Assembly (NCBI GenBank): GCA_013360745.1
Contig: JABWBA010000012.1
Location: forward strand, 1-58,178
Length of the DNA: 58,178 nt
Source: Chthonomonadales bacterium
Lineage (GTDB): Bacteria > Armatimonadota > Chthonomonadetes > Chthonomonadales > CAJBBX01
Direction: 5' to 3'
The notes below the pieces were generated by a model that was not told the origin of the DNA, did not search any database, and was given only the letters and a program-made list of their open reading frames with translations. This document shows, in pieces, positions 39,572 through 58,001 of the stretch. Position 1 is the stretch's first letter. Each line of letters begins with the position of its first letter. The position numbers and the translations under genes were made by a program.

Positions 39572-42500
39572 ATGCGTTATATGATGCGAGTCCTGATCGT
39601 CTCCCTCTCGCTGGGATGGATGGTTCACGCGGAGACCGCAGGCGCCCAGGCGCTCAAGCCGCATGCGGGGATGCTCCGCTATCCGGCCATCAGCGCCGAC
39701 CGGATCGTCTTCCGGTATGCCAACCGGCTCTGGATCGTCTCCCGCGATGGGGGCGCGGCCCTTCCCCTTGCCGCGCCGAGCGGCTCGCTGGCGTTCCCGC
39801 GATTCAGCCCCGACGGAACGAAGGTAGCGTATCTCGCCAACTACGAAGGGGGCAATGACCTGTACGTCCTCCCCATCGAGGGCGGGATACCGTCGCGCGT
39901 CACGCATCATCCATCGCAGGAGATGCTCTGCGGGTGGCTCAAGAGCGATCGGCTCCTCTTCTCTGCAGGCATCAGCGGGTTGAGCCGGCAGGCCCAACTC
40001 TACACGGTGGCGCCGACGGGCGGTCTTCCGATCCAACTGCCGGTGCCCTACGGAGCCCTGGCCGATATCAGCGACGACGGCAAGCTGCTCGCCTACACGC
40101 CGCACACTCAGGACTTCGCAACCTGGAAACGGTATCGGGGCGGGATGCAGACCGATATCTGGCTCTTCGACCTGACCACCCGCAAATCGAAAAGGATGAC
40201 CGACTGGGAGGGCAACGATACCGCGCCGATGTGGATCGGAGGCAGGGTCTATTACGTCACCGACGCGGGCAAGGAACGCCGGGGCAACATCTGGGTGTAC
40301 GACCCTCAGAACGGCAAACGGTCCCAGATCACCCACTACGACGACTTCGATATCAAATGGCCGTCTAAGGGTCCCGGGCCCAGGGGCGGCGGCGAGATCG
40401 TCTTTCAGCACGGCGCCGAGCTCTGTGTGCTCGACGTCCCGACCGGCAAGGTGCGGACCGTCGAGGTGACCATCCCGGGCGAACGGCCGAACCTCGCCGC
40501 CAGAGCCGTCGACGCAAGTCGATTCATCACCGGATGGGGCATCTCCTCCACCGGCAAACAGGCGGTGATCGAAGCCCGCGGCGACATATGGACCGTACCG
40601 GCAAAGGACGGCGTGCCCCGCAACCTGACCCGCAGCAACGGCTCCAACGAGCGCGATCCCGCCTGGAGCCCCGACGGCCGCTGGATCGCCTATCTTTCGG
40701 ACGCTGCGGGCGAGTACGAGCTCTATATCACCCAATCAGACGGGCGGGGCGATACGCGACAGCTGACCAGAGACGGCGATCGTTTCCGCTATGCCCCGAC
40801 ATGGTCGCCGGATTCCAGCCGGCTCGCCTTTACGGACAATAGCGGCGCGCTCTTCGTCCATTCCGTGGCGAACGGCGAAACGAAGCTGATCGATACCGAC
40901 CCGTGGGGCGACCGGCCCCAGCCATCGTGGTCACCCGATAGCCGCTGGCTCGCCTACGCCCTGACCGACGAAACCCCGAGCCTCCATTCCATTCGGGCCT
41001 ACGATCTGAAGAACGGTCAGAAACACCGTCTGACCAGCGGCATGTTCGAAGATACGCGTCCGGTCTTTGATCGCAAGGGCGAGTACCTCTACTGGGTTAG
41101 CGGCCGGAGTTTTCAGCCTACCTACGAGGACTTCGGCACGAGCTGGATCTATACCGACAGCGAGACGCTCATGGCCGCCTCCTTGAAGGCCGACATGCCG
41201 TCTCCCTACCTGCCGAAGGTCGATCAGGAAACCTGGACCGAAACGAAGCCAGAGAAGCCGGCGCCCGCCGCCGTCGAGATCGCCCTATCGCCCGACCGGA
41301 CCTCCTCGATCCCGGCTGCACGGACGGTTCTCGCTGCGGAACCCGATGACCCCGTCTCAGGCGCCTGGAGCGGCACCGCCGATGCGGCCCCGATCGGGCT
41401 CGGGACCATCAGCTTCACCGCGCAGTTGACGCTCACAGCGGGCAACGCCATACAGGGGAGCCTGGTCACGCCGATGGGCTCTTCGAGCATTACCGGATCC
41501 TGGAATCCGGACGCGCGCAAACTGACCCTCACCGTTCCGCTGCCCATCGGGGTCGTGGCGACGATCACCGTGACCGTCACCGGCAATACAGCCGAAGGCA
41601 CCGCCGAGGCCGAGGGACAGGTTATCCGCATCCGCATGACCCGCGACGCCGCGCCGAAGGAAAAGCCCGAAGCTCCCCGGACGAAGCCGCAGGGTCCAGC
41701 GGCTCCCGCGACGGGCTCCAGGGAGGCGCTCAACGTCGTTATCGACCCGGCCGGTTTTGAGGGCCGGGCGATCCTTCTCGCCCCCAAACCCGGGGCCTTC
41801 GGCAGGCTGGCGGTCAACGACCGGAATCAGCTGATCTTCGCGCGCCGTGCATCCCTCGGAGGAGGCGATCAGCCATCCATCAAGCTCTTCGACATCAAGG
41901 ACGATAAGAAGGAAGAGAAGCTGGTCGCAGCCGGAGCCCAGGACTTCGATATCTCGGCCGACGGCAAGAAGCTTCTCGTGGCGCGGGGCGGTTCCGCCGC
42001 GATCCAGGACGCCTCGGCAGGCGGATCCGGCACAGCCGTCGCGACGGCAGGTATGACGGTCCGAATCGATCCGCGAGTCGAATGGCGACAGATCTTCAAC
42101 GAGGCCTGGCGGACAATGCGCCAGTTCTTCTATGCCCCCAATATGCACGGCGTCGACTGGCCCAAAATGAAGGCCCACTACAGCGCGATGCTCGGCGATT
42201 GCGCCAGCCGCGACGATCTGAGCTACGTCATCGGCGAACTCATCGGCGAGCTGAACGTCGGCCATGCCTACTACAGCGGCGGCGACACGGGTTCGCAGCC
42301 CTCCGTGTCGGTCGGTATGCTCGGAGCGGATTTCGAGATCAAGGACGGCGCCTATCGGATCAGCACGATCTATCGGGGCGCTCCATGGGACGCGGACGCT
42401 CGCGGCCCGCTGGGCGAGCCCGGGCTCAAGATCGGGGAAGGCGACTACTTGCTCGCCGTCAACGGCATTCCGATCGACACCACGATGGATCCATGGGCGG

Positions 42501-43297
42501 CCTTCATCGGCCTCGCCGATAAGACGGTGAGCCTGACCGTGAGCAGCAAACCGATCCGGGACGACAGCGCCCGCGATGTGCCCGTTCGTCTGACGTCCTC
42601 CGATCGGGACGTACGGTACCGGGCCTGGATCGAGCGTAATCGAGCCTATGTCGAGAAGAAGACGGGCGGACGCGTCGGCTACATCTACGTGCCCAATACG
42701 GGCGTTGCCGGCCAGAACGACCTGGTGCGCCAGCTCGTGGGCCAGAGGGGTAAGGCGGCTCTCATCATCGACGAGCGGTGGAACGGCGGCGGACAGGTGC
42801 CCCATCGCTTCGTCGAACTGCTCGAACGGCCTCTCTTCAACTACTGGACCGGACGCTACGGACAGCCGACCGCCTGGCCCCCCGATGCGCACCGCGGCCC
42901 GAAATGCATGCTCATCAACGGACTGGCTGGCTCCGGCGGCGATCTATTCCCCTACTACTTCCGCGCGGCGGGGATCGGCAAGCTCATCGGCACCCGCACC
43001 TGGGGCGGAGTCGTCGGGATCGGCGGATTCCCTGCGTTGATCGACGGCGCAGTGGTGACCACCCCGAACTTCGCTTTCTTCGAGAACGAGAAGAAATGGG
43101 GTATCGAAGGCCACGGCGTCGACCCCGATATCGAAGTGCTCGACGATCCGGCTCTGATGCTCGAGGGTGGCGATCCCCAGCTCGACGCCGCCATCAAGCT
43201 GATGCTCGACTCGATCCAGGATCGGACCTACAAGCCCATCGCCCGTCCGCCCTATCCCGACCGAAGCGGCATGGGCGTCCCGGTTCGGGAACGGTGA
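39572..43297 (+). CDS. Tricorn-type protease with an inserted beta domain
   Basis: 1241 residues with a signal peptide (VLIVSLSLGWMVHAETAGAQA), so it acts outside the cytoplasm. The first half carries two runs of WD40/PD40 blades (FPRFSPDGTKVAYLAN; DPAWSPDGRWIAYLSD). An extra segment of about 100 residues (590-695, SGAWSGTADAAPIGLGTISF) interrupts the second propeller and looks like a small beta domain. The C-terminal half has tricorn helices (NEAWRTMRQFFYAPNMHGVDW), LNVGHAYYSGG with the candidate catalytic His898, a PDZ-like region, and GLAGSGGDLFPYYFR with nucleophile Ser1121. Breaks down oligopeptides. Convergent with the KAP operon. Confidence 0.9.
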   Translation: MRYMMRVLIVSLSLGWMVHAETAGAQALKPHAGMLRYPAISADRIVFRYANRLWIVSRDGGAALPLAAPSGSLAFPRFSPDGTKVAYLANYEGGNDLYVLPIEGGIPSRVTHHPSQEMLCGWLKSDRLLFSAGISGLSRQAQLYTVAPTGGLPIQLPVPYGALADISDDGKLLAYTPHTQDFATWKRYRGGMQTDIWLFDLTTRKSKRMTDWEGNDTAPMWIGGRVYYVTDAGKERRGNIWVYDPQNGKRSQITHYDDFDIKWPSKGPGPRGGGEIVFQHGAELCVLDVPTGKVRTVEVTIPGERPNLAARAVDASRFITGWGISSTGKQAVIEARGDIWTVPAKDGVPRNLTRSNGSNERDPAWSPDGRWIAYLSDAAGEYELYITQSDGRGDTRQLTRDGDRFRYAPTWSPDSSRLAFTDNSGALFVHSVANGETKLIDTDPWGDRPQPSWSPDSRWLAYALTDETPSLHSIRAYDLKNGQKHRLTSGMFEDTRPVFDRKGEYLYWVSGRSFQPTYEDFGTSWIYTDSETLMAASLKADMPSPYLPKVDQETWTETKPEKPAPAAVEIALSPDRTSSIPAARTVLAAEPDDPVSGAWSGTADAAPIGLGTISFTAQLTLTAGNAIQGSLVTPMGSSSITGSWNPDARKLTLTVPLPIGVVATITVTVTGNTAEGTAEAEGQVIRIRMTRDAAPKEKPEAPRTKPQGPAAPATGSREALNVVIDPAGFEGRAILLAPKPGAFGRLAVNDRNQLIFARRASLGGGDQPSIKLFDIKDDKKEEKLVAAGAQDFDISADGKKLLVARGGSAAIQDASAGGSGTAVATAGMTVRIDPRVEWRQIFNEAWRTMRQFFYAPNMHGVDWPKMKAHYSAMLGDCASRDDLSYVIGELIGELNVGHAYYSGGDTGSQPSVSVGMLGADFEIKDGAYRISTIYRGAPWDADARGPLGEPGLKIGEGDYLLAVNGIPIDTTMDPWAAFIGLADKTVSLTVSSKPIRDDSARDVPVRLTSSDRDVRYRAWIERNRAYVEKKTGGRVGYIYVPNTGVAGQNDLVRQLVGQRGKAALIIDERWNGGGQVPHRFVELLERPLFNYWTGRYGQPTAWPPDAHRGPKCMLINGLAGSGGDLFPYYFRAAGIGKLIGTRTWGGVVGIGGFPALIDGAVVTTPNFAFFENEKKWGIEGHGVDPDIEVLDDPALMLEGGDPQLDAAIKLMLDSIQDRTYKPIARPPYPDRSGMGVPVRER

Positions 43298-43385: not shown

Positions 43386-44717
43386 TCAAATGCCGTGTTT
43401 CCACAGTTCGGTCAGCTCGTTCTGGAGCGTTTGAATCTCGTCTCCGATTATTCCGTACGGCCAATCGCTGTCGGCAGTGAACGTCAGCGCGCCCAGATCC
43501 ACGAGCAACGTCCCCAAACTCGTGCTATCGGTGTCGATCAGGTTCGGGTTACGTATCGTATCGAGCATGCTGGAACGCCAGCGTTGATTCAGCGCATTCA
43601 CGAACACCGGCCACATGCTGTCATAAGGCGCGATCCGATCCCGGAATACGGGAAACGCCACACATAAGATCACGAGGCGCGCGAGGCGCACGGTTTTGGT
43701 CTCCATGGTCGCGCCCTTGACCCTGTTCTGTACACCGGCACCCACGGCTCGTTTCAGATCCATCCGGACGCGGGCGTGCAGCCGGCGGTTGCCGAGCACG
43801 GAATAGCTGATCTTGCCGAGAGCCTCGCCGTCGTCCGGAAAGTCGGCGCTCCAGAGGGTGGGACCGTCCGATTGCAGGATCGGCGGCAGATTGAACCGAC
43901 GCCCGAATACTTTCATCAGATACGCGTTCGGATCGAAGGTTGGCATGTCCTGAAACACGTGTCGAAGATAGTCCTCGAGGACCGGCACGTTCACCGCCCA
44001 GACGCTCTTGAGGGGCCAGTTACTAGGCTCATCGTCTTCGTGCGGCAGGATCAGATGGTAGAGATCGTGCAGAACCTGGAACGCCACATCCGGTCGCGTA
44101 CGATCCATATCGTCAACCATCAGAACGACGTTCTTCTTACCGTAAGCCTTACACAGATCCATCAGTAGCGCACGCATCGACGTGCGGTGAAGTGGTTCAG
44201 CTGGACCAGTGTCGCTAGACGTGTCAGTTGGATTAATGGGGGTTGTGGCCGCAACGCTAACGTCGAGCAATTCGTTGACACCATCGGGCAGGTCGGGGCC
44301 GCCGTATACCTTGCACAACGGCACAATCAACGGCAGCGCCCTCACCGCCGCTGTCCCGGCTGTGCGGCGTATACGCCTGAGGCGTGACCTAGCCCTTTCG
44401 CCCCACGTTTTCAATCGTTCGTTAAGGGCTTTATCGGCGCTCTTTTCGGCATGTCGAGCCAGGTGTACGAGATGGGAGGCGATGTCCAGCATTGGATCGC
44501 TGGCGCCGATAAAGGCGGACGGCTCCAGCCATATGACCCCGGTATCGGTCGGGATCAGACTCCTCAGTTGTCTCAGTGTATGGGTCTTCCCGGATCCCCA
44601 TGGGCCAGCGAGCAGGACGTTCCTGGTATCGTTGTCTTGTACTAGCTGCAGAAGCTTAGCCGCGTAATCGGGGCTGGGATCCGCCCCGGCGCTAGACATC
44701 GGTTCCACGGATCTCAT
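43386..44717 (-). CDS. KAP-type P-loop NTPase, third gene of the KAP operon (KAP-1)
   Basis: 443 residues. Walker A GPWGSGKT (38-45) near the N-terminus and Walker B VVLMVDDMDR (about 197-206) with the KAP DDxDR signature. The stretch between them holds a moderately hydrophobic segment (AAVRALPLIVPLC, about 123-135), which could be the short remnant of the membrane insertion typical of KAP proteins. The C-terminal half is helical. The start at 44717 is supported by GGAGG 6 nt upstream; it overlaps the middle gene by 26 nt. KAP NTPases occur in phage-exclusion and defence modules. Function here is inferred. Confidence 0.82.
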   Translation of the reverse strand: MRSVEPMSSAGADPSPDYAAKLLQLVQDNDTRNVLLAGPWGSGKTHTLRQLRSLIPTDTGVIWLEPSAFIGASDPMLDIASHLVHLARHAEKSADKALNERLKTWGERARSRLRRIRRTAGTAAVRALPLIVPLCKVYGGPDLPDGVNELLDVSVAATTPINPTDTSSDTGPAEPLHRTSMRALLMDLCKAYGKKNVVLMVDDMDRTRPDVAFQVLHDLYHLILPHEDDEPSNWPLKSVWAVNVPVLEDYLRHVFQDMPTFDPNAYLMKVFGRRFNLPPILQSDGPTLWSADFPDDGEALGKISYSVLGNRRLHARVRMDLKRAVGAGVQNRVKGATMETKTVRLARLVILCVAFPVFRDRIAPYDSMWPVFVNALNQRWRSSMLDTIRNPNLIDTDSTSLGTLLVDLGALTFTADSDWPYGIIGDEIQTLQNELTELWKHGI

Positions 44718-46677
44718 GACCGCCCTCCTGATGCGCCAGCAGCTGCTCGGCGGCTTGTTGAATGGTCTGTCCGTCCAGCCAGTCGATCCCGGCCCATCCG
44801 AATGCCGAGATCAGATCCTGTGCGTTCGTGATGGGCGGCCAGCAATCGGGGCTGAAGACGTGCTGAACCAGTGCGGCCCGGGGCTCCGGGGCCTCCGGGC
44901 TCTGTACGAACCTGCTCAGGAGTTCCATCGCGGTCGGATCCCTGCTTATTATCTCCCTGTATGCGTCTGCGTTATAGGGCTGGCCTGTCTGGAGGTAGGT
45001 CCACGCCTCACTGCGTCGAGCCTGGTTCCGTGGTGTATCGCCATACGCGTCGGAACAGATGAAGCTCAGGGCCACGCGGACCCGAACCTGACGTTGCCCT
45101 CTTCTTGCGATCGTCATGCCCGACTGGCTCCAGAGACCGCCGAGGATCTGGGCTCCCTGCGCTTCGACAAACGCCGGATCCATCAGATGCCCGGCATTCA
45201 TCTTTAGACCCACTGTTTCCTCAAGGGAGTCGGCCGCGCTCTCTCCAACGAGGTCGTTCGCCAAACGCAGGCTTACTTCGTAATCGGCCCCGAGCCGCGC
45301 GACACGAGCCCACCATAGGATCGTTAGCAACTGAGCCTTGACGCGCAATGCGGCATCTCGCTCGCCGATCGCCGAGTCCAGCAATGCGTTCAGCCTCGTC
45401 ACGCCTTCGCTCTGGGGCGCGAGCAGCGCCTCTGCATTGTGCAGTATCATGGCCCATGTGCGCCGGGCATGAGACGCGGAATCTAGCGACTCATGCAAGA
45501 CCTGCTCGCGGTAGTGCAGCGTGTCGCGATACAGCCGATCGATGGCGGATATTTCCTCATCCCGTATCGGATCGAGCAGGCGCACTACCTGATCCCTGAG
45601 AGTCGCCTCGTCCGTATGGAGCCCTTCCGTAAGCCGCACCGATCGTTCCTTGTCATCAAGGACATCGAGAAGGAACTCCGCATAAAAGAGGCGGATACGA
45701 TGCCTGTCGGGATCGACCTCGGAAGCCACATCGAATAGCCGATAGCACTGCAGCTCGCTGCCCGCGACGTCATCAAGCACCACGGCCAGATTCGACAACG
45801 AGGGCGCAACCGAGGCGGCGTAGAAGCGACGATGGCGCTCGAGCCACGAATCGGCATACGCCGTTGCCATCGAGGCGGCATCCACGGCGCCCGTGAGGCG
45901 TGCCTGCACCACCATGTTGGTAAAACTCGCAACCTGTTCCGCAATGGTGACTCCCGTGACCGATTGGCCCATATGGGCTTCGACCCATTCGGTGAAGGTC
46001 TGTTCTGTCTCAGCGCCAGCGGGTTCGGGAGAGTGCGGTTGGTCATTGTCGGTTATCGCAAGGATCAAAAGCTGCAGCAACAGTTCTCGTTCCTCACCCT
46101 TCTGTGGCCAGAGTGAGGGCATGTCCTGCTCGCTGAGCGATGTCGATTGCTGGACGATGGTGTGGAGATAGGCGCGGAACATCTCTGACGCCTGGGACGT
46201 TACCCGACCTCCGCCGCAGCTCTCCACCGTCGCCGTCGCCGCATGGGCGAGCAGCCGGAAGGATGCGGGATCGCACTCACGCAGCAGCGATAGAGGTCGG
46301 AAGTGCCGATCGAGCAGCGTCAGAGCCGGTCCTTCCGACGTACGCGCTTCGGCGGCGAGCAGCCGATCGCGAAGGAAAGCCTTGATCTGTCTTGGTGTGA
46401 GCAGATGAAAGAGCCGCCGATACCGGGCGCTGATCCTGGGTCCTGGAGGCCATCCGTCCCCACCCGGATCCCACACCAGGATCGTCTGCAGCGCCACATC
46501 GATCGGCGAGGTATCGTCGAAAACCGGCGACCCGATCTTGCGCTGTTTGCTGTCACTCTCTACTTTGGTAGGGTCGAGCAGGTCCGGTCCCAACGGACTC
46601 TTATCCTTCTCCGAGTCTGCACCCGATTGGGCTGGATGCCCCGCGAGTTTACTGCCGTTATCCTCTTGTTGTATCAT
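44692..46677 (-). CDS. 661-residue protein of unknown function, middle gene of the KAP operon
   Basis: I recognise no domain. The first 50 residues are polar and acidic/basic mixed (likely disordered: SEKDKSPLGPD, VESDSKQRK). The rest is predicted by eye to be alpha-helical, with repeated leucine/arginine-rich helices (HARRTWAMILHNAEALLAPQ) that resemble a helical-repeat scaffold. There is no signal peptide, transmembrane helix, nuclease motif or P-loop. The start is ATG at 46677, overlapping the KAP-2 stop by one base (TGATG); a TTG at 46680 is the alternative. The tail overlaps KAP-1 by 26 nt. Its conservation between two NTPases suggests a shared complex. Confidence 0.8.
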   Translation of the reverse strand: MIQQEDNGSKLAGHPAQSGADSEKDKSPLGPDLLDPTKVESDSKQRKIGSPVFDDTSPIDVALQTILVWDPGGDGWPPGPRISARYRRLFHLLTPRQIKAFLRDRLLAAEARTSEGPALTLLDRHFRPLSLLRECDPASFRLLAHAATATVESCGGGRVTSQASEMFRAYLHTIVQQSTSLSEQDMPSLWPQKGEERELLLQLLILAITDNDQPHSPEPAGAETEQTFTEWVEAHMGQSVTGVTIAEQVASFTNMVVQARLTGAVDAASMATAYADSWLERHRRFYAASVAPSLSNLAVVLDDVAGSELQCYRLFDVASEVDPDRHRIRLFYAEFLLDVLDDKERSVRLTEGLHTDEATLRDQVVRLLDPIRDEEISAIDRLYRDTLHYREQVLHESLDSASHARRTWAMILHNAEALLAPQSEGVTRLNALLDSAIGERDAALRVKAQLLTILWWARVARLGADYEVSLRLANDLVGESAADSLEETVGLKMNAGHLMDPAFVEAQGAQILGGLWSQSGMTIARRGQRQVRVRVALSFICSDAYGDTPRNQARRSEAWTYLQTGQPYNADAYREIISRDPTAMELLSRFVQSPEAPEPRAALVQHVFSPDCWPPITNAQDLISAFGWAGIDWLDGQTIQQAAEQLLAHQEGGHEIRGTDV

Positions 46678-47768
46678 CAATGTTTCCCCAACAACGTGGC
46701 TACGAACAGATCGGCAAGGGTTCGGTCCGATCGATCTGGTAGTTCCGACCTGAGCAGGGCCTCAAGGCCATCGATGTACGCGGACGGAAACGCGGCGCCG
46801 CGGCCCAAACGAGCGCCCATGGACGGAAGCTCCACCGCATACTGGACATATTTCTCGAGCGCGGAGTTCGGAGCGACGAGGTAGGCTCCGTCGTCTCGTT
46901 TGCCTTTGGCATCCATCCAGTCGCGAACGCCCTGCTCAAGGACGTCCCAATCGCAGGTGATCACGAAATGGACTCGTTTTCTGCCGGAGAAACGGAGCAA
47001 TAGATCCACCACCTGCATGGGCGTCTCCTGAGGGCATCGGTCGAGATCGTCCAGGAAGACGATCAGATTCGTCTCCGATTTCTTCAGCAGCTTCTGCAGA
47101 GCCATTTCGACGCCCATGGCGGCTGTGTACCGACTGGGCTCGCTCCCATCGTGACCGACCATACGGTCCTGCCACGGCAACAGCCGCCCGGGTTGCGCAT
47201 CCTGCAGCGGAGCTCGATCCGGGGTCGTGGTTTCGAGATGCCAGAAGTCCTCGGTCGCCCGCTTGAGTGCGGCGAGCTCCTCGGATGCGACTTGCTCGGC
47301 GGCATTGCCGCGACGCAGCAACGAGTCACAGATCCAGGCCAACACCACTGCGGATGCAGAAACATGAGCGCGCGATACCGCGGTCGCCATGGGAATCCAC
47401 ACGGTACGGATCTTCTTGTTACGTATTCGGTCCGCAGGCGCATCCGCGTTAGCCGCTGGAGGAGGCTCGGTCTCGCCGTTGCCCGTAGGCTCGCTGGCGC
47501 CGACGGCGCCCTTGTCGGAAGCAGGCGGCTCCAACCGCTCTTGCAGCATCCGCGCGAAGCTGGTCTTGCCCGTGCCGTACCGACCGTAGATCAGCACTGT
47601 GCAGGTCTCGTCTCTGGTCCTCAGTTCCTGAAGGATGTGCCCGGCGCTCCGGGGATTTCTGGAATCGTCCGGATCCGCGCCCCAGTAGGCAATCCACATA
47701 TCCGGGCTTGGGGATCGAGGCGACTCCGCAAGCCGCTCCAGCAGTGTTCGCTCCAGAGTTCGGTCCAT
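46677..47768 (-). CDS. KAP-type P-loop NTPase, first gene of the KAP operon (KAP-2)
   Basis: 363 residues. Walker A GRYGTGKT (62-69) and Walker B LIVFLDDLDRCPQETPMQVV (235-254), a standard KAP block. Between them is a polar, Pro/Ala-rich insertion (about 85-115) and VSASAVVLAWICDSLLR, which has the size of one amphipathic or membrane-adjacent helix. No full membrane pair. VHFVITCDWDVLEQGV is the family strand after Walker B. AGGAG is 8 nt before the ATG. It is unlike KAP-1 in sequence, so the two are not a recent duplication. Confidence 0.85.
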   Translation of the reverse strand: MDRTLERTLLERLAESPRSPSPDMWIAYWGADPDDSRNPRSAGHILQELRTRDETCTVLIYGRYGTGKTSFARMLQERLEPPASDKGAVGASEPTGNGETEPPPAANADAPADRIRNKKIRTVWIPMATAVSRAHVSASAVVLAWICDSLLRRGNAAEQVASEELAALKRATEDFWHLETTTPDRAPLQDAQPGRLLPWQDRMVGHDGSEPSRYTAAMGVEMALQKLLKKSETNLIVFLDDLDRCPQETPMQVVDLLLRFSGRKRVHFVITCDWDVLEQGVRDWMDAKGKRDDGAYLVAPNSALEKYVQYAVELPSMGARLGRGAAFPSAYIDGLEALLRSELPDRSDRTLADLFVATLLGKH

Positions 47769-47809
47769 GTCTCTTGCTCCTCAGCTGGGATATAGATTGC
47801 GCTATAAAC

Positions 47810-47832
47810 CGACCGGGCATCACCCGGGTCGT
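47810..47832. repeat. Imperfect inverted repeat in the KAP / propeller divergent region
   Basis: CGACCGGG and CCCGGGTCG face each other across CATCA, with one extra base in the second arm. It lies about 40 nt upstream of the KAP-2 start in the 248-nt divergent gap (47769-48016) and could be an operator. TATAGC and TATATC hexamers on the minus strand nearby may be -10 boxes, without a clear -35. Confidence 0.3.
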
Positions 47833-48016
47833 CGGAGAATCGAGCCTCATTGCGGACCTGAGGATCGACCTCTGGTAACGCGCCGATTGTTCGACGGCTA
47901 ACGGTATCCTCCTTCAACCCGCCGTGAACTGGTCCGGTATTGATGTTAGCGAAGGTTTGGCCGGGCCGATGTCGAACCTAGGCGATACCACAATGCTCTA
48001 TGGGAGGCCTACCAAT

Positions 48017-50362
48017 ATGGAACCCTCAGCCTGGCTCCGTCCGAGTTTCGGCCCTGCTCTCCTCAGCCTGCTCTTCGTCGCGATCACTGCGGTCATGGCC
48101 ATGGAAGCCGGCGGCGCCGCGGAACCCGAAACGCGCCGATGGAAGCCAGTGGCCGACACGCCCTATCTGCAGGAAATCGGCCAGCGCATCCGCACCGACT
48201 CATCCGTAACCGCGGTCGCAGTCCATAGGGACGAGATCTATGCCGTCGTCGACGGAGCCCTGCTTCGGCTCGAAAAGGAGACCCTGACTCCCGTGGCGGG
48301 CGCGCCGACGGGCATCAGCCGCCTTGAACATCTGGCCGGCGACCTCTGGGCCATCACCCCCAATGCCGTACATCGGCTGTCCGGCAGAGCCTGGGAGAAG
48401 GTCGCCGACCTCGCCGCGGTCGATATGATCGTGCATCTAGGCAAGGTCCATGCTGCGACGAACCAGGACCTCTACGTCTATCAGGACGGTCGGTTCGCCA
48501 ACATCAAGCCCGCAACCGGATGGCTGAGCAACAACAGCACCTTCGTCATGGACGATTTCTCACAGGTGATCGCCGATCCGATCCAGATCGGCCCGATCCA
48601 GCGCATCGCCTCCTATGGCGGCACGCTCTACATCCTGCGCCCCGGCCGCCTCGGGGTCATCGAAGGCGACACCTTCGTCGAGGATCCCATCGACTGGGGT
48701 TCGCTTCCATCGCTGACGACGCGCGACATGCTCTCCGCCGGCAGCCGCCTCGTCATCGCCACAGACCGGGGCCTCGGAGTCCTGCGGGGTATGGCCATGA
48801 CCACGGAACAGGGGCCGCAAGGGCTGCCCTACGAGGATGCCACCTGCCTCACCGATGGTTTTGACGGCGATATATGGATCGGCACCAGCCGGGGCGCCAT
48901 CCGATGGACCGGCAGCGAGCATCACTACTTCGGAGCCGATCACTGGCTGCCCGCCGACCGGGTCAACGACATCGCCGTCGGGGGCAGGACCGTCGTCGCG
49001 GCCACCGACCGCGGGCTCGGGATCATCCGCTACGAGCCGTTCACCCTCGCCCGCAAGGCTGCCTACTTCCAGAGGCTCATGGATCACTGGGGCTTCAAGC
49101 GACTGGGGTTCGTCCACAAGCTATGGTGGTCCGACGCTGACAAGGGCTGGATCCGCGAGATCAGCGATAACGACGGCGGGCACACCTCGCATTACCTGGC
49201 CGCCATGAGCTATCGCTATGCCGTCACACGGGATGAGAACCACCGCAAGGAGGCCGTCGAGGCATTCCGCGCGATGGTCTGGCTCGACGACATCACCCCC
49301 AAGCCCGGGTTCATCGCCCGCGCCATATGGTCCGAGAAGGCCGATAAGGGCCAACGGTCCACCCGGGGCTCCGGCGGACTCCCCGCCAAATGGTATCCGT
49401 CCGACGACGGCCTGTGGTCATGGAAGGGCGATACCTCCAGCGACGAAGTCAACGGACACATGTACTCCGTCTCGCTGTTCCACGACCTCGTCGCCCGAGG
49501 CGCCGAAAAAGAGCGCGCCAAACAGCACATCGCCCGGCTCTCCACCCACATCATCGACAACGGCTGGGTCCTGCGCGATATGGACGGCAAGCCCACCCGA
49601 TGGGGCCGCTGGGACCCCGACTACCTCCTGAAACCCTACGGCTTCGAGGCGCGCGGCCTCAACGGCATGGAAGCCCAGACCTATATGATCACCGCACTGG
49701 GCCTGACCGGCGATCCCCGCTACCAGGCCGGCCTCGACCAGCTCATGAAATGGCGGTACCACACCTACACCGTCCGGCAGAAGCTCACCTTCCCGCCCGA
49801 CATGGTTGTGCCCTGGGACGACGAGCTCGCCTTCCGCTGTTATCTGCCCCTGATCACCTACTGCAAAGACCCGTATCTCAGATCCATCTACCTCCGGAGC
49901 ATCGCCCGCCATTGGGAAGTCCTGCGCATGCAGAAGCTCCCCTTCTTCAACTTCATCTACGGCGCCCTGACCGGGAACGACTGCGAAGCCCCCCAGGCCG
50001 TCGACAACCTCCGCGAATGGCCCCTCGACCTCGTCAGCCACAACTTCCGCAACTCCCATCGAGCCGACCTGACGGTCGAACCCGGCTACGTCGCCTATCA
50101 GACCGCTCGCAAAGCCATCTCACCCCGCGAGAGCGAAGCCATGTGGGGCAGCCGCAGCGCCATCGAGCTCGACGGCGGCTCAGGCGGCCGGGCGGTCACC
50201 CCTCCCGCCGGCTGGCTCGAAGACTACTGGATGGGCCGCTACTACGGCTTCATCGAAGCTCCCGCCACCCGGGATCAGAAACTCCTCAGCCCCGACGGCC
50301 TCCCGATGCCCGAACCCACCGCCGCACCCTACAGCGGCCCGCCGCGGCCCGCGGCGAAGTAA
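48017..50362 (+). CDS. Secreted two-domain protein: N-terminal beta-propeller and C-terminal helical (alpha/alpha) domain
   Basis: 781 residues. A signal peptide (LLSLLFVAITAVMAMEAGGA) is followed by about 350 residues of propeller-like strands with blade ends such as DGALLRLEKETL, RGLGVLRG, GDIWIGTSRGAIRW and DRGLGIIRYEPF, as in two-component-regulator propellers. The C-terminal 400 residues are helical with WSDADKGWIREISDNDGGHTSHYLAAMSYRYA and DVNGHMYSVSLFHDLV-type blocks resembling toroid glycan-active enzymes. GGGAGG (48002-48007) places the start at ATG 48017, not 47924. It lies between the KAP operon and cas3; no link to immunity is seen in the sequence. Confidence 0.7.
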   Translation: MEPSAWLRPSFGPALLSLLFVAITAVMAMEAGGAAEPETRRWKPVADTPYLQEIGQRIRTDSSVTAVAVHRDEIYAVVDGALLRLEKETLTPVAGAPTGISRLEHLAGDLWAITPNAVHRLSGRAWEKVADLAAVDMIVHLGKVHAATNQDLYVYQDGRFANIKPATGWLSNNSTFVMDDFSQVIADPIQIGPIQRIASYGGTLYILRPGRLGVIEGDTFVEDPIDWGSLPSLTTRDMLSAGSRLVIATDRGLGVLRGMAMTTEQGPQGLPYEDATCLTDGFDGDIWIGTSRGAIRWTGSEHHYFGADHWLPADRVNDIAVGGRTVVAATDRGLGIIRYEPFTLARKAAYFQRLMDHWGFKRLGFVHKLWWSDADKGWIREISDNDGGHTSHYLAAMSYRYAVTRDENHRKEAVEAFRAMVWLDDITPKPGFIARAIWSEKADKGQRSTRGSGGLPAKWYPSDDGLWSWKGDTSSDEVNGHMYSVSLFHDLVARGAEKERAKQHIARLSTHIIDNGWVLRDMDGKPTRWGRWDPDYLLKPYGFEARGLNGMEAQTYMITALGLTGDPRYQAGLDQLMKWRYHTYTVRQKLTFPPDMVVPWDDELAFRCYLPLITYCKDPYLRSIYLRSIARHWEVLRMQKLPFFNFIYGALTGNDCEAPQAVDNLREWPLDLVSHNFRNSHRADLTVEPGYVAYQTARKAISPRESEAMWGSRSAIELDGGSGGRAVTPPAGWLEDYWMGRYYGFIEAPATRDQKLLSPDGLPMPEPTAAPYSGPPRPAAK

Positions 50363-50437: not shown

Positions 50438-50477
50438 CCCCATGAATGGGGCGCATGCGATCACCATGCCCCCATTC
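50438..50477 (+). promoter_or_regulatory. Competing inverted repeats upstream of cas3
   Basis: CCCCAT (50438-50443) can pair with ATGGGG (50446-50451). The same ATGGGG lies in a longer arm, GAATGGGG-c-GCATG (50444-50457), that pairs with CATGCCCCCATTC (50465-50477) across 7 nt. The two pairings exclude each other. The element ends 22 nt before the cas3 ATG, so it is either a tandem operator or an RNA switch. Confidence 0.4.
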
Positions 50478-57710: not shown

Positions 57711-58001
57711 ATGGACATACTCGTCTGTTACGATGTGAGTACCGAGACGCCCGACGGCCGTCGGCGTCTGCGAAGAGTAGCCCGCGCCTGCGAGGGCTCC
57801 GGCCAGCGAGTTCAACTATCTGTGTTCGAATGCACCCTGAGCGACGCGGACTATGTTCGCCTGCGTGACAAGCTCCTTGCGATCATCGATCCCGCCGAGG
57901 ACAGCCTCCGCCTCTACCGCCTCATGGCGCCTCGCGGCCAGTCCATTGAGGCGTACGGTATCGACCGTTATGTCGACTTCACCGCTCCCCTCGTGGTATG
58001 A
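57711..58001 (+). CDS. cas2: Cas2 spacer-acquisition protein
   Basis: 96 residues, ferredoxin-like. Opens MDILVCYDVSTETPDGRRRLRRVARACE, with the conserved Asp at residue 8, and contains RVQLSVFECTLSDADYVRL and AYGIDRYVDFTAPLVV. Forms the dimer core between Cas1 dimers. Sixty-seven nt separate it from cas1; no further gene follows before the leader. Confidence 0.95.
   Translation: MDILVCYDVSTETPDGRRRLRRVARACEGSGQRVQLSVFECTLSDADYVRLRDKLLAIIDPAEDSLRLYRLMAPRGQSIEAYGIDRYVDFTAPLVV

Follow-up and report, generated by a model that had tools for sequence, protein, structure and literature searches.

What could be the task of an operon in which two different KAP nucleoside triphosphatases (NTPases) enclose a large protein of no recognisable family? 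Such a three-gene operon is found at positions 43386-47768 of contig JABWBA010000012.1 of a Chthonomonadales bacterium (assembly GCA_013360745.1); the whole stretch of 58,178 nucleotides that was analysed is referred to here as the window. By analogy with related proteins, a role of this operon in defence is plausible and a reasonable guess.

Organization of the Operon

All three genes lie on the minus strand with intact frames: KAP-A (46677..47768), a KAP P-loop NTPase core of 363 amino acids; the gene of the orphan middle protein (44692..46677), 661 amino acids from the ATG at 46677; and KAP-B (43386..44717), a second and divergent KAP P-loop NTPase of 443 amino acids. This gene structure is established, and the open reading frames (ORFs) and overlaps are as a previous sequence-only reading of the same DNA had claimed. 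KAP-A and the middle gene share 1 nt in a TGATG stop/start overlap (46675..46679, minus strand), an arrangement typical of translationally coupled genes, and the middle gene and KAP-B share 26 nt (44692..44717, minus strand). The start contexts of the three genes are gctgAGGAGcaagagacATG, ttGGGGaaacattgATG and catcAGGAGGgcggtcATG, with clear Shine-Dalgarno motifs for KAP-A (AGGAG) and KAP-B (AGGAGG upstream of its start); upstream of the middle gene there is a weaker GGGG, and the ATG of this gene sits right at the KAP-A stop codon, one codon after the TTG at which the mechanical ORF begins. In all three genes, the called frame has a positive synonymous codon score and both other frames of the same strand have negative ones; since KAP-A and the middle gene reach comparable scores in their antisense frames, the codon test by itself is no proof of strand. 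The promoter is presumed to lie in the intergenic stretch 5′ of the operon (47769..47923), which faces a divergent gene, and a promoter scan of this stretch gave 0 minus-strand candidates.

Two Distinct KAP NTPases

That the outer genes encode two distinct KAP NTPases, as the sequence-only reading had proposed, is borne out by profile and motif evidence. Both proteins match Pfam KAP_NTPase (PF07693) above its gathering cut-off of 20 bits (KAP-A, E 2.4e-12, 47 bits; KAP-B, E 1e-10, 42 bits), and both carry an intact Walker A motif (GRYGTGKT in KAP-A, GPWGSGKT in KAP-B) and an intact DDxDR-type Walker B motif (LIVFLDDLDRC and VVLMVDDMDRT, respectively), which places them within the family. A home-made profile, for which 60-odd KAP proteins from other genomes were used, matches residues 53-324 of KAP-A (E 1.4e-20) and residues 34-280 of KAP-B (E 9.9e-22), and no similarity between the two was detectable with phmmer. 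No convincing transmembrane segment was seen in KAP-A or KAP-B, the 19-residue hydropathy maxima being 1.2-1.5 across all three proteins; a transmembrane insert is common among KAP proteins and not universal. In a tree of 60 KAP cores, KAP-A, KAP-B and a protein from another locus (L038) fall together on very long branches, and the tree is not used as evidence because this grouping is most likely long-branch attraction.

Middle Protein and a Possible Division of KAP-A

The middle protein had been described as lacking any recognisable domain, and indeed no family match above cut-off was obtained in Pfam, NCBIfam, PADLOC, PHROGs or PDB. It is predicted to be all-alpha, with a disordered and charged N-terminus. 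The only lead to a family is a match to TPR_TmcB at approximately residues 290-350, which stays below cut-off (E 0.11 for the whole protein and 0.011 for the fragment). An AlphaFold2 (AF2) model made without an alignment is helical and poor (mean predicted local distance difference test score, pLDDT, of 43), and its best blocks (52-82, at approximately residues 300-370) coincide with the TPR_TmcB stretch, which is suggestive of a TPR-like patch at approximately residues 290-370.

In canonical long KAP proteins, the motif 'LeKivqlpfdLP' is followed by a helical region with the motif 'npRqikrfln'. KAP-A stops short of this region and has no C-terminal helical part itself, its end lying approximately 45 amino acids past the conserved 'LEKYVQYAVELP' motif. 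In a joined sequence of KAP-A and the middle protein, the KAP profile extends and aligns 'npRqikrfln' with LTPRQIKAFLRDRLL of the middle protein, a stretch that includes LTPRQIKAFL, lies at approximately residues 93-108 in the first sixth of the protein, and may be a KAP lid. The lid motif score of the middle protein is equalled by 2.3% of shuffles (p = 0.023). On their own chains, neither KAP-A nor KAP-B has a recognisable C-terminal lid motif (npRqiKRfln); several short KAP proteins from other genomes likewise score low for it, and so the motif is not universal in the family. Since the position and order of the motif fit, we report it as no more than a hint that one KAP protein is divided between KAP-A and the middle protein, with the lid supplied in trans. 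The 'large scaffold' suggested previously for the middle protein was a guess, and a KAP that is split and has a TPR-like arm would fit the sequence at least as well.

Comparison with Known Systems

The layout of two KAP proteins and an orphan middle protein is unlike all known systems with which we compared it, in agreement with the sequence-only reading. The resemblance to PifA and QatA, two kinds of protein to which that reading had pointed, concerns mainly the KAP core. QatA is the best defence-profile match of KAP-A (PADLOC 4e-10, NCBIfam 1.7e-10); however, the match spans only part of the KAP core and reaches 40 bits against an equivalog cut-off of 600, and qatB, qatC (QueC-like) and qatD (TatD) are absent from the three-gene cassette. 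The plasmid matches of KAP-A include several annotated QatA proteins, and in both plasmid loci inspected, where the KAP-A match bears no annotation beyond 'P-loop NTPase fold protein', it precedes qatC and qatD. In qatABCD systems, QatBC alone can confer defence and the role of QatA is unclear; QatA multimerises and binds DNA, but defence against some phages does not require it (PMC12424860).

PifA, a KAP NTPase implicated in phage exclusion, matches KAP-A (PADLOC 1.9e-8) and KAP-B (8e-5), but it is a single large protein, and the match is not full-length, covering only part of a 720-position profile. PDC-S20 of PADLOC, which is listed only as a phage-defence candidate, is partially matched by both KAP-A and KAP-B (approximately 2e-6 each). 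Tmn, an anti-phage KAP NTPase with two transmembrane domains (PMC11846954), shares the family with the outer proteins, whereas it is one protein with transmembrane segments and the best 19-residue hydropathy in the trio is at most 1.5. Operons in which a KAP NTPase accompanies two Orc/Cdc6 ATPases, of which one has a disrupted Walker B, are predicted to serve defence (PMC10853773) and likewise combine different P-loop ATPases, including a KAP; here, by contrast, both outer proteins are KAP proteins, both Walker B motifs are apparently intact, and the middle protein is a non-ATPase. In addition, PHROG 8614, a family of phage proteins of unknown function, partially matches KAP-B (1.8e-12) and KAP-A (1.9e-6), and is therefore probably a KAP NTPase family.

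Distribution

No relatives of the middle protein were found in 291 genomes of the phylum, in 388 genomes picked as relatives (mostly from outside the phylum), in 195 genomes of another phylum, in plasmids or in phages, nor by peptide-pattern scans of viral contigs (IMG/VR) and 85,000 species genomes. For KAP-B, no relatives were detected in genome contigs, viral contigs, plasmids or 40 further genomes, and a search among relatives gave doubtful matches only. The pattern scans require near-exact matches of eight residues, so that only close relatives are excluded by them. In two KAP censuses, each of which scored only 6-7 candidates per genome and may thus have missed pairs, the genome of this window was the only one seen with two short KAP genes so close together; one other genome (G444) has two neighbouring pairs of census matches, in much longer proteins that are presumed to be STAND-type NTPases.

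Several look-alikes were rejected. Weak tblastn matches of the middle protein are spurious at L002, where the match falls inside a VirD4/HerA-like ATPase, and, by context (HflX), at L058. A KAP gene next to a 666-aa ORF (L037) does not have the same layout, the 666-aa neighbour being a membrane protein, and L036 lies within a secretion-system-like gene cluster, with a match confined to the surroundings of the P-loop.

Genomic Context and Accessory Status

The operon is flanked on one side by a convergent gene for a tricorn protease (39572-43297) and on the other by a divergent gene for an 812-aa protein (47924-50362) without a Pfam match. Beyond the latter, a type I-C cas operon starts with cas3 at 50446, followed by cas5 (52639), cas8c/csd1 (53319), cas7 (55010), cas4 (55925) and cas1 (56609), and a 96-aa ORF occupies the cas2 position (57711-58001). 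The sequence-only reading had placed the trio 2.7 kb from a cas locus; the distance to cas3 is right, but the gap is occupied by the unrelated 812-aa gene. Apart from cas, no defence genes were seen among the scanned genes of the window.

The two closest relatives (G007 and G010) retain the tricorn gene (70% identical) together with its metallophosphoesterase neighbour, but the next gene is different, and the 812-aa gene (70%) is found on contigs other than that of the tricorn gene, without a cas or KAP neighbour. The GC content of third codon positions is 0.70-0.72 in the trio, 0.68-0.72 in cas3/cas5, and 0.77-0.83 in the flanking genes. We regard the accessory status of the trio as established: because the flanks are conserved but unlinked in these relatives and the trio resembles cas3/cas5 in composition, both the KAP cassette and the cas operon look like accessory additions in this lineage.

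Three further observations concern the window itself. The 812-aa gene probably begins further downstream than the called GTG: alignments with close homologues set in only at residues 29-51, and an ATG at approximately residue 32 precedes a signal-peptide-like stretch. The contig end (58145-58178; ...GGGGCCGGTGCGGATTGAAAC) resembles a type I-C CRISPR repeat, apparently the first of an array that is itself lost where the assembly breaks off, and for this reason a repeat search of the last 579 bases found no CRISPR array. Lastly, a large protein encoded at 8037-10973 matches Pfam HZS_alpha, the hydrazine synthase alpha middle domain (3.9e-20), and also has an F5/8 type C domain.

Proposed Function and Alternatives

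From the kinship with QatA, PifA and PDC-S20, together with the literature on QatA, Tmn and the Orc/Cdc6-KAP operons, we infer a heteromeric, NTP-driven sensor/effector complex in which the middle protein would be the recognition arm; complex formation, the defence role and the mode of action are all drawn from analogy. KAP-A and the middle protein would most likely form one functional unit, KAP-A providing the P-loop core; the helical lid and a TPR-like arm for recognition, which ordinary KAP proteins have on one chain with the core, would come in trans from the middle protein. KAP-B would join this unit as a second NTPase subunit of a different kind. If PifA, QatA and Tmn are a guide, the helical arm would most likely sense a phage or mobile-element cue, and an NTP-driven rearrangement would then block infection or kill the cell. 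That the operon is a self-contained, horizontally acquired unit encoding one NTP-driven multi-subunit machine, most likely directed against phages or mobile elements, is our tentative reading, to which we give slightly less than even confidence. Its most specific form, a previously undescribed heteromeric defence machine whose two KAP NTPases differ and of which one is split, with its lid and TPR-like sensor arm on a separate, translationally coupled protein, appears quite unlikely.

Several points weigh against this reading. No effector domain (nuclease, protease, TIR, pore or other) was found in the trio, KAP proteins have non-defence roles too, and a conserved non-defence gene, that of the 812-aa protein, stands between the operon and cas. 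With a single locus known, there is no guilt by association. The AF2 model of the middle protein and the single-sequence model of KAP-B (pLDDT 38) are too poor to judge the folds. In addition, the lid motif is weak, as 7 of 439 unrelated decoys (approximately 1.6%) score as well, and the lid profile alone ranks the middle protein only 14th of 1442.

Some of these points would suit an accessory operon that does something other than defence and lies near cas by chance; an NTPase complex working at the membrane or on mobile-element DNA would be an example. Like the missing effector domain, the apparently non-defence nature of the 812-aa neighbour and of all scanned genes to the left speaks for such a job, but the nearest KAP relatives by profile are QatA, PifA and PDC-S20, and the composition of the trio is like that of the cas genes. 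We consider this explanation somewhat unlikely. It is improbable that a frameshift or an assembly error has split a single KAP gene into KAP-A and the middle gene, which would leave two tandem KAP genes at the locus. Long KAP genes in several draft genomes (L007, L025, L032 and L061) are split into pieces that overlap, with frameshifts or assembly gaps as the apparent cause, and the match to the KAP profile extends further in the joined protein than in KAP-A by itself; however, the ATG of the middle gene lies exactly at the KAP-A stop with the weak GGGG upstream, whereas the second piece in L007 has no ATG near its beginning. A decaying, non-functional leftover of a mobile element, with which an accessory segment without detected relatives would be compatible, is highly improbable given three undamaged frames, each with an intact start, and two intact NTPase sites. 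Finally, an auxiliary module of the adjacent type I-C CRISPR system, suggested by the proximity of cas3 and the similar composition, is scarcely credible for an operon on the strand opposite to cas with an unrelated conserved gene in between.

KAP NTPases are recurrent in phage-exclusion proteins, and their working mode is largely unknown. The proposed machine is at present known as one orphan locus, from its sequence alone; if core, lid/sensor and second NTPase are indeed separate subunits, each step could be assayed separately.
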